Assembly (NCBI GenBank): GCA_003024785.1
Contig: PUQB01000130.1
Coordinates: forward strand, 116,510-180,509
Length of the DNA stretch: 64,000 bases
Source: Selaginella tamariscina
Lineage: Eukaryota; Streptophyta; Lycopodiopsida; Selaginellales; Selaginellaceae
Direction of reading: 5' to 3'
Shown piece after piece: positions 19,801-23,566 of the stretch. The notes beneath the pieces were generated by a model. The model made no database searches. It was not told the DNA's origin and worked only from the letters and a program-made list of their open reading frames with translations. How positions within the stretch are numbered: position 1 is the first letter of the stretch; each line of letters opens with the position of its first letter. The position numbers were made by a program, and so were the translations under genes.

Positions 19801-22800
19801 ATATTTGTTATGTATAGCAGTATAATGTGTAAAGCAGCATCTAGGTACATGTCGTTATGACGGCATAGCATACAGTAAGTATTCAATAGTATGGTGCTAT
19901 ATATTATGTATGTGTATTACCTCCACTCGCGTTTCATCACGCTCCTGATCGTTCATGTTTTGCCGCTCAGCAAAGGCAAACCTTTCAAAGCAACTTAGTT
20001 AAAGCAAATACGCACACACAAATTTCCACCTCTATAATACATGCACACCCTATGAGGTACATAGAAAGTGTTAAGAATACTAGAGGCCGTGATTGTGTGT
20101 GAGAGAGAGGGGGAAGGGGGCGCCTCTCTTGCTGTCTACGTTAATCACACACACAAACAAGACATAAGATAGGTATTTGCACATACAGTGTATACGTACA
20201 TATACGTAAATAACTATTCTTACCAGGCCTTGAACTCGGCCAAGCTTGAGAAAATATCAGGAAGGATGAAGTTTAGCAGGGACCAGAGCTCGTGGAGATT
20301 GTTCTGTAAAGGAGTACCCGTCAATAAAAGAGTGTTTTCCAATCTCAGCTTTTTGAGCTCTTTAAACAGCTTGCAATCATAGTTCTTCAATCTATGCCCC
20401 TGCAAAAATACCCATGTAAAGATGAATATTTACATAATAAATCAGGATATGCTTATGCAATGCCTAAGTACAAAACAAAGCGTGTATGGATATATATATG
20501 CGTGAATATGCAGTACGCTTAAATGCATGTATATGTAATGAGGAAATATGAAAAACCATTTTCTTTTAGTCTACGTAAGTGTTTACAAACATGCATTTAT
20601 GCACGTAAACGTTTGAATGCATAACTTGTACATTGGATTTCGTTGAATATGCATTTTATAAAATCTTTGCCGTAAATATATATATATATATATATCCGGA
20701 GATAATGAACAACCATTTCTATTGTATTTGCAGACATATACATCTATATATATGAAAAGAAAAATACCTCGTCTACAACAACGTAGGTCCATTTGTAGTG
20801 TCTCAGAAAAGAGACATCTGCCATGAGGACTTCGTACGATGTAACAATGACCGGTAGATCTGTGCCATTACGTGGCATGTGCTTGCGTCTTTTCTCAGCA
20901 CGCTGCTCCTTTGGGCCGTGGTAGAGTAATGACTGCATGGTCGGACACCATCTGCAAATAAAAGCATAACTTTAGATACTCCCCATATGTATAAACACAC
21001 AAAGCCTACAAAGATATAAACAGAGAAGTACAATAAATGTCGACTTGCTTATTTATATCGAAAAGTTTTCTTGCCTATGCAGCAATCGCAGTCTGTCCGT
21101 TTACATATTATATATGGATAGATATACAGCTAAGGTATATAAATAAGATGTATACACACATAATAAATGAAATAACGAACCTTCCGATTTCGTTAATCCA
21201 ATTTGCAAGAGTTGATAGGGTGCACAAATAAGAAAAGGACCCTTTACACCGTTGCTCATTAAATGAGCGAGAAATGTGATGGTCTGAACAGTCTTCCCGA
21301 GCCCCATCTGATCAGCAAGTATACCGTTCACTCCGTTTTGGTACAGTGCAATCATCCACTTGACCCCTGTCGCAAGGTTATTATACATATAAACACACAA
21401 ATACATATGCACATACATGTGTATATATGTATCAAGCTCGTGTATACAAGTACTCGTGTATACGTGTCATACCTCTTTGCATTCATAAGCGCATTGCCCC
21501 GTATGTATATGCATATATATACACATATATGTCTGATTTTAGAAAACCTTGCGTTTCAGAGTGATATGTATATGTACAATTTACATACCACATATATATG
21601 TTTATAAATAATCATAAGTATATATATGTATACATACACATAATATAAGCGTGCTTATATGCAGATTCAGTAATACCTTTGATTTGGTAGGACTTCAGAG
21701 TTCCTCCAGTCACAAGTGGTGCAATTTCCTTTTGTAGATTTCTGTGCTTTTCATCCTCTTCTTGTTCTTCTTCTATTATTTCTTCCTCGTAGCTTGTATT
21801 AACTTGTCTTTTCTTCGCCGGCTAATATGTAAGTAAATAAAACCAAGTATTAAACAAAACCAGCTAACAGATGAGTTAAACCATTAATTAATGTTAATAT
21901 GTACTACATATGCAACACTGTAAACAACCAACCTAATAAAACAAAAACAAAAAGTACCTGCGTAGATGTAGCCGTCCCTTTCCTTTTCCTCCCTCTCTTT
22001 TTGGCCTGACAATAAAAACATTAATTTCATCACACACTACTCGTATATGTATAACTACGTACTGTGTTATCCTCATTCATCTCATCCATTCTCTCGTGCA
22101 GAAACTCTGAGTAGCATTTGGTCTTGTTTAGTAGCTCATCGAGTTGCTTAGCAAACCATTTGACGAGGGTTGCCCGTCAACAGGTTCTTCAAGCTGCTCG
22201 TCCTCGTTCTTTCGCTCTTCTTCTAATTTCTTCTCTACTTCGACCATTGCTTCTGTTAATTCTCCCTACAAGAAACATAATAGATTGTATTTATAAAGAT
22301 ATATCACATTCATATAAATGAAGTTTAACGTTATACGCATGCAAAAGATTCTTACACATGTATAGACAACACAGATACACGTACGCATTCACGCAGATAC
22401 AAATCTGTGTACATATACACATCAAGAACCACTCTCGTGGAAAGCCCGATTTATATTGTGTACATCTAAAAGTTAAAGATGTTCTGACTTTAGTTTAAGA
22501 AAGAACGCTCTTTAAAAGTATAAAATTAATAATAAAACTTAAGGTTCACAGTACACACCTTTGCATGTGTTATACTGTCCTCTAACCTTTTCATAAATAA
22601 TCTATATGATATCAGTTAAATCACGATTAACCAAATGGGCTCACCTCGTCTTCCAAGACTGACACCGGTGAATTCGCATTATCAGATTTTGAAGGGACAT
22701 CTGACGGCTTTGCAGAAGTCGGAAACTCTTGCGCTTTTGAAGTAGCCGGAAGACCATCCTGGCGGATTGAATCAGATGAAACAGAAAGTAATAACGTTCA

Positions 22801-23566
22801 CATATGGTGCATATGTGTGAATATGTGTTTCTTACCTCGTCTTGCTTTGCACTTTTGGATTTTGAAGCAGCAACAGACGGCTTTGCTGCCTTTGAGGCAG
22901 CAGCAGAAACATCATCCTGGTAAACAATGCAAAGATTATAAGCAACAAAACACAGTACTTACAAACAGCACTGTACATTTATGTGTGTATACATATAAAT
23001 ATGTAATATACAGGCCCAAAAAATGTCTCTACATTTGCGCTTCTAGATTTCGAAGCGACTTTTGACGGCTCCTTGAAAACAGTATCCTGAAAAAACTACA
23101 CATTAGACTGCGAAGGGAAAATGTCTAATCCTACCTTGTTCTTAGATTTCGAAGCGATTCTTGACGGCGCCTCAGCCGGCGGATCATCCTGGCATTGAAG
23201 AACATTAAGAAGACAAATCAATGAAAAACACTAAAATCACTCTGAAAACCACAGAAAGCATCTAAAAAACAGAGATTTAAAGCCCTAACCTTGGATTTCG
23301 AAGCGATTGTTGACGGCTCGGTCAGAGTATCATCCTGCCAAGAATGCAGATTAAATCAGGGAAAGAAGCATAAAGAACACGGACTTCACACTAAAATCGA
23401 TGAAAAACAACACCGGAATCAATCCAAAATCATGGAAAATCCATAGAAAAAGAAAACAAATGCAAACCTGGTCATCATCGAGGACAATCACATCAGGTAT
23501 CGGAGCTGCATTGGCGCCTCGAGCTTTAGCGACGCAAGATCTAGAGGGCCTGCCGTGACGCACCAT
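16810..23566 (-). CDS. DDM1: DDM1/LSH-type SNF2 chromatin remodeling ATPase
   Basis: Twenty-two exons run from ATG 23566 to stop 16810, 846 codons. Family: DDM1 slides nucleosomes with ATP and keeps transposons methylated and silent in the nucleus. Order: [10 protein letters not shown] and an acidic VIVLDDDQ; a Ser/Lys-rich repeat region (exons 2-6); helix [19 protein letters not shown]; basic [19 protein letters not shown]; motif [13 protein letters not shown]; motif II DEGHRLKN (across 20768/20399); motif [46 protein letters not shown]; motif [12 protein letters not shown]; motif [23 protein letters not shown]-terminal LLDRSDM and KGPGWEVVV. Splice phases fit throughout. Two frames break: exon 7 at plus 22167-22169 and exon 10 at 21218-21220 (before [10 protein letters not shown]). 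Each is mended by reading C4 for C3 on the coding strand, so I suspect consensus error. Exon coordinates: 23566-23468, 23334-23290, 23188-23135, 23086-23033, 22916-22836, 22758-22645, 22265-22063, 22005-21958, 21821-21677, 21366-21181, 20951-20768, 20399-20224, 19981-19921, 19664-19475, 19208-19113, 18929-18832, 18723-18604, 18504-18391, 18244-18146, 17888-17784, 17311-17220, 16984-16810. Confidence 0.95.
17022..17113. repeat. (TC)n/(TA)n microsatellite in the last DDM1 intron
   Basis: A pure TC run of about 70 bases (17022-17092) is followed by TA repeats. It lies in the intron between exons 21 and 22. A comparable AG/AGGG tract lies at 17665-17743 in the previous intron. Such tracts occur in many introns of this window. 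Confidence 0.95.
22645..23334 (-). repeat. Tandem duplicated small exons in the DDM1 N-terminal region
   Basis: Exons 2-6 of DDM1 (23334-23290, 23188-23135, 23086-23033, 22916-22836, 22758-22645) each start with GAT right after a CAG acceptor, are multiples of three in length (45, 54, 54, 81, 114) and are phase 0 at both ends. Each holds a CCGTC...TC(G/A)AAATC core. The peptides share D(D)-x3-6-(E/K)PS-x2-(A/P)SKS: for example [45 protein letters not shown] and [10 protein letters not shown]. Any of these exons could be skipped without breaking the frame. Confidence 0.9.

Follow-up and report, generated by a model that had tools for sequence, protein, structure and literature searches.

The locus raises the question of how a run of five small exons came to stand behind the first exon of a DDM1 gene, and what that run does to the protein that the gene encodes. 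The gene lies in a 64,000-nt stretch of Selaginella tamariscina DNA (the window; all coordinates are positions in it unless a contig is named). DDM1 is needed for the methylation and silence of transposons. Tandem exon duplication as such is well known; it is reportedly treated by Kondrashov and Koonin (2001) and by Letunic et al. (2002). The original prediction held that the five exons arose by repeated duplication of one exon together with its intron, and that their alternative inclusion could adjust the length of a charged linker.

The analysis described below indicates that the five exons, E2 to E6, are related by descent and that at least one step of their duplication included an intron. 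We consider it probable that E2 to E6 are genuine coding exons of the only near-complete DDM1 gene found in this genome, made by serial tandem duplication, usually all spliced in and spacer-like in their role.

Identification of the gene and its small exons

The gene model was assembled manually, guided by splice signals and by protein similarity; its introns are GT-AG. It comprises 22 coding exons, from E1 to the stop codon, on the minus strand (16810..23566), and rests on the exon table, the match to Arabidopsis DDM1 and Pfam. Compared with relatives of solved structure, the model protein scored 782.9 bits with Arabidopsis DDM1, against 509.1 with lymphoid-specific helicase, 481.3 with a SMARCA-type protein, 475.6 with ISW1 and 431.2 with SNF2. 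By protein similarity the gene is DDM1, as had been predicted, of the DDM1 / Lsh-HELLS subfamily of Snf2 remodellers, with DDM1 ahead of LSH, ISWI and SNF2. Both helicase lobes were recovered in a Pfam search in which X was typed at two frame breaks (SNF2-rel_dom PF00176, 290.9 bits; Helicase_C PF00271, 99.1 bits). A search of prokaryote genomes gave six bacterial loci, matched through a stretch of 70 residues in the protein of 848; a search of viral contigs with a 487-residue part gave no match, and scanning the window for Rfam families and tRNAs gave none.

Exon E1 (99 nt; 23468..23566, minus strand, as for all features of this gene; exon table and pairwise comparisons) runs from the start codon through the segment VIVLDDDQ. 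The small exons, each delimited with pairwise exon comparison, are E2 (45 nt, 15 residues; 23290..23334), E3 (54 nt, 18 residues; 23135..23188), E4 (54 nt, 18 residues; 23033..23086), E5 (81 nt, 27 residues; 22836..22916) and E6, the longest of the series (114 nt, 38 residues; 22645..22758). The lengths, the phase 0-0 of all five, the CAG/GAT acceptors, the PS-x2-(A/P)SKS core (of which PSDVPSKS is one variant) and the coordinates were all found as originally described. The lengths of all six exons from E1 to E6 are divisible by 3, and the symmetric phase of E2 to E6 means that copies keep the frame.

Comparison of the N-terminal tail with Arabidopsis DDM1

The one plant relative from another species that was compared was Arabidopsis DDM1, in the form of its chains in the PDB. 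It aligns from query residue 148, that is, from the last two residues of E6 and then E7 (22063..22265; exon table and alignment), so that 147 residues precede the aligned part here and 58 in Arabidopsis. The two are the same gene, with an alignment from the end of E6 on, and E8 here retains a basic RGRKRK stretch, whereas E1 to E6 are without a significant sequence counterpart: the Arabidopsis N-terminus resembles the end of E6 in an SPxSVL motif at a non-significant 3.2-3.5 bits. A PDB search with E1 to E6 alone gave no match up to E 10.

Exons E2 to E6 encode 116 residues of DD...PSxxASKS modules within the N-terminal tail. The charged linker that had been proposed was found in part: charges are present, and mixed, but the segment is near neutral overall (net charge per residue of E2 to E6, 0.009). 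The segment falls on the disordered side of the charge-hydropathy boundary (0.393 vs 0.416) and 69% of its residues are disorder-promoting, which would be consistent with a disordered tail.

According to the accessible portions of PMC10529913 and PMC11239853, the N-terminus of Arabidopsis DDM1 is disordered, its removal (residues 1-132) raises ATPase activity, and it is named AutoN; a conserved region resembling the AutoN of ISWI and the H4 tail is proposed there to compete for the acidic pocket. In S. tamariscina the enlarged tail would be placed ahead of the E7-E8 block, which corresponds to the Arabidopsis DDM1 autoinhibitory region. One survey, as far as its accessible text goes (PMC6624907), describes the exon-intron structure of DDM1 as highly conserved in higher plants; on that description, the expanded N-terminal exon set would be a departure in the lineage of this plant.

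Splice signals and inclusion of the exons

The splice signals and the frame of E2 to E6 are seen directly, and from them we infer that the five are used as exons, most likely all spliced in as a rule. The suggestion of alternative inclusion bears mainly on E3 and E4, which could be mutually exclusive, or E4 could be a cassette exon, giving DDM1 forms with different N-terminal tails. These two related exons of equal length (54 nt each) are separated by intron 3 (48 nt; 23087..23134; exon table), the shortest of the 21 introns, the retention of which leads to an in-frame stop. In addition, the E4 donor, AAT/GTAGAG, pairs with U1 more weakly than any other of the 21 donors (-1.3 kcal/mol), while by consensus matches it ties with that of intron 18 at 4/9. 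The same donor reads AAG/GTTGAG and AAG/GTAGAG in two broken DDM1 fragments of the genome, on contigs C1359 and C727 respectively; AAT in the window is probably a later weakening, judged from copies in the same genome rather than from an outgroup.

The arrangement of E3 and E4, equal in length, related and set around a very short intron, is like that of the mutually exclusive exons 4a and 4b of OGDH, for which the accessible part of PMC7969005 gives a steric limit of ~50 nt between the 5' splice site and the branch point. The 48-nt intron and the weak E4 donor would argue against simple joint inclusion of E3 and E4, and the autoinhibitory nature of residues 1-132 in Arabidopsis (PMC10529913, in the portion cited above) would give different tails a possible effect. 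Against this, the steric rule is a vertebrate one, whereas E3 and E4 belong to a plant gene and are known from genomic sequence alone. Moreover, intron 7 is only 57 nt long and has a donor of near-equal weakness (-1.6 kcal/mol), and by eye it must be spliced, since its retention brings a stop; its splicing despite size and donor indicates that this gene can cope with short introns and weak donors. We regard alternative splicing of the array as unlikely, and regular inclusion of all five exons as more probable. Very unlikely, in our estimate, is the further proposal of a splice-adjustable autoinhibitory tail, in which E3 and E4 would exclude one another through the 48-nt intron and the weakened E4 donor, and the number of PSxxASKS modules would let tissues or stages set the strength of DDM1 autoinhibition and thereby of transposon silencing.

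Apparent frame breaks and the other DDM1 copies of the genome

The DDM1 gene of the window contains two apparent -1 frame breaks, one inside E7 and the other in a run of C in E10 (21181..21366; helicase motif region; exon table and comparison with C1359); 20 of the 22 exons are open in frame. The breaks count against the explanation that we favour, as the window copy may itself be broken.

The genome (300.7 Mb in 1391 contigs) was searched for further copies. Five scored candidates gave DDM1 5'-end copies, all broken, on C1359 (14855-16255 and 20765-21973; L017/L013), C727 (425443-426637; L015) and C530 (764098-764644; L016), at least three in total beside the window; the end of contig C324 (L014) is the C1359 copy, with 100% identity over 4886 bases. 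The C1359 fragment holds E1 to E5 and part of intron 6, with pieces of E7, E10 and E11 inverted about 5 kb upstream, and tblastn found no later exons in C1359:301-40300. E1 to E6 are carried by C727, and E1 to E3 with an inverted piece of E4 by C530; later exons are absent from the 40 kb read around each. Exons E12 to E22 are absent from all three fragments in the stretches read.

Of the 14 exon counterparts in the fragments, with boundaries set by eye, seven have lengths not divisible by 3, and three contain a stop in the frame read. E3 is shortened to 33-34 nt (54 nt in the window) in C1359, C727 and C530 alike, and this common short E3 suggests one origin of the fragments, after their split from the window copy. 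By comparison of these copies, the exon array predates the broken DDM1 fragments of the genome.

Upstream, the C727 and C530 fragments share sequence over about 1.2 and 1.5 kb, at levels of 86 and 90%. The idea that a transposon captured the 5' end of DDM1 and so gave rise to the fragments was considered and set aside, as the shared stretches look like segmental duplication. This upstream sequence (L018:7340-10000 and its C530 counterpart in L019) includes an open frame that by eye resembles an F-box gene.

A genome search with the 487-residue ATPase part gave 92 matches, and the statements that follow cover the 88 of 127 candidates that were scored. Outside C336, no ATPase match combined at least 70% identity with a length above 40 residues, and the nearest other DDM1 remains were the C1359/C324 pieces (68-82% over 33-51 residues). 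Within those 88 candidates, the window copy appears to be the only near-complete DDM1 found in the genome. Several Snf2 matches were paired on two contigs at near-equal scores (for example C556/C764, C459/C1058, C455/C704 and C769/C865), as if they were unmerged assembly duplicates.

These data bear on the possibility that the window copy decayed recently into a pseudogene, with an exon array that has no present function. The two frame breaks would agree with it, as would the additional C that C1359 has in the same run of E10 and the broken state of the three other copies; at the place that corresponds to the E7 break the C1359 copy is itself disrupted. Weighing against a pseudogene are the 20 open exons, the recovery of both helicase domains with X typed at the breaks, the lack of a comparable ATPase locus among the scored candidates, and the fact that the E10 break, at least, falls in a single-base run, the kind of place at which assembly errors arise. 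With the remainder of the gene open and no replacement gene among the candidates scored, we read the breaks as probable assembly errors. A pseudogene seems to us rather improbable; the window copy is better taken as a genuine DDM1 gene that would be expressed.

Common descent of the five exons

The relatedness of E2 to E6 was assessed by pairwise comparison with dinucleotide shuffles. For five of the ten pairs (E2-E3, E2-E4, E3-E4, E4-E6 and E5-E6) the real score was equalled in 0/500 shuffles; for the remaining five, 1, 1, 3, 5 and 18 of 500 shuffles equalled it. With up to 3 mismatches allowed, a 23-base core occurred at three sites in the window, in E2, E3 and E4, where 0.00 were expected. 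A nucleotide profile of the five exons returned the same five at 32-52 bits (their own scores, by construction), and nothing else in the whole window lay above the inclusion threshold.

Synonymous codon choice gave the same answer. With expectations drawn from the codon use of the DDM1 gene itself, codons for the same residue were identical at 19 of 21 places in E2 to E4 (6.4 expected; 0/20000 simulations) and at 45 of 63 across E2 to E6 (18.6 expected; 0/20000). For E5-E6 alone the count, 4/6 against 1.9 expected, was not decisive, being as high in 1280/20000 simulations. The original claim of serial duplication of one exon was thus borne out for all five exons by shuffles and synonymous codon identity; on these comparisons, the neighbouring exons E2 to E6 are of common descent. 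Convergence under selection for a Ser/Lys-rich tail could draw on the low-complexity Ser/Ala/Lys sequence that the exons encode, on the E5-E6 count and on the weak likeness outside the core, where E2 to E4 differ at 5, 6 and 9 of the 9 positions that separate GATGAT from the core, but in the face of the codon identities in E2 to E4 and over all five exons, and of the homology of introns 1 and 2 described below, it is hardly credible, and for E2 to E4 already refuted.

Distances within the core, per 30 nt, were 3 for E2-E3, 5 for E2-E4 and for E3-E4, 8 for E5-E6 and for E4-E6, and 10-12 for the other pairs. They roughly track gene order, which suggests that the array may have grown from E6 towards E2.

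E1 was compared as a possible sixth relative in 21 comparisons. E1 of C1359 against E4 of the window gave 0/1000 shuffles and E1 against E4 within the window 19/1000; the other 19 comparisons lay at 85 to 1000 of 1000 shuffles, and the profile searches did not return E1. E1 is thus a candidate sixth relative, on evidence that is suggestive at most.

Tests for homology among the introns

From the window alone, the introns were unremarkable. Smith-Waterman alignment of 15 intron pairs, with shuffles, gave its best result for introns 1 and 2 (score 27; 9/500), non-significant for 15 tests. When the five introns were ranked as a group among all 20349 five-intron subsets, the acceptor side reached 1343 at best and the donor side 11828 to 18911. 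For introns 1 to 5 in turn, a power simulation with copies that carried 20% substitutions and indels exceeded a score of 27 in 299, 298, 153, 296 and 278 of its 300 runs. Together, the window-only tests and the simulation suggested homology of the exons only, a conclusion that the other copies in the genome overturned for introns 1 and 2.

On the consensus of the genome copies, intron 1 (133 nt; 23335..23467) and intron 2 (101 nt; 23189..23289) aligned over most of their lengths with a score of 45, a value reached in 0/2000 shuffles (shuffle maximum, 33). Compared copy by copy, the same two introns gave 16 combinations at 0 to 14 of 500 shuffles. Of the nine other consensus pairs the lowest were introns 4-5 (16/2000), 2-5 (41/2000) and 1-5 (82/2000), and the remaining six lay at 1035 to 1962 of 2000; the common part of introns 4 and 5 is one TATACACACATA stretch only. 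Even on consensus, introns 3 and 4 showed no homology to introns 1 and 2 or to one another.

The acceptor ends were ranked in the same manner, with single-copy introns as controls and consensus sequences for the repeats. Those of the five introns ranked 83 (36 nt), 489 (45 nt), 663 (30 nt) and 1640 (24 nt) among 20349, and those of introns 1, 2 and 5, a trio chosen post hoc, ranked 1, 1, 2 and 12 of 1330.

Alignment of the exons with their flanking introns therefore upheld the proposed joint duplication of exon and intron in part: the exons are homologous, and E2 and E3 were duplicated with introns 1 and 2, whose homology is seen through the genome copies. For E6 the likeness is confined to the acceptor end, in the post hoc trio, and for E4 and E5 (introns 3 and 4) no intron homology was found. 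Selection at the nucleotide level, as for a splicing enhancer, was also considered as what keeps the core alike; it is unneeded for E2 and E3, because their introns are alike as well.

Probable growth of the array and its significance

The array is best explained by one small symmetric exon that was duplicated serially in tandem, probably starting at E6 and proceeding roughly towards E2, and that at the E2/E3 step was copied, at least once, together with the upstream intron. Owing to phase 0-0, each copy could be inserted without upsetting the frame. The product would be an element of length and spacing with little sequence-specific duty, that is, an enlarged and weakly constrained spacer.

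The array is a neat, mostly ordinary case of tandem exon duplication, and its moderate interest comes from the gene it sits in. Like known cases, it consists of symmetric exons that lie side by side in a single gene and descend from one ancestor, and one duplication included the intron; unlike them, it has five members that differ in length and encode part of a low-complexity tail. In the open-licence literature, searched by titles and the beginnings of abstracts, no description of a serial exon repeat in DDM1 was found among the matches listed.

An exon array in the N-terminal tail offers a natural experiment on tail length and the restraint of the enzyme. If the exons are always included, it would be a clear example of a disordered tail growing by exon duplication; alternative inclusion, if true, would offer a new means of tuning a master silencer.

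Other observations in the window

On the minus strand at 58153-59272, two open frames with matches to xyloglucan fucosyltransferase (PF03254) overlap although they are read in different frames; a further one-base error, a disrupted gene or an intron could explain the overlap. On the plus strand, the LRR part of an F-box-like gene was found at 37850-38665 (PF24758, 29.7 bits against a cut-off of 27).
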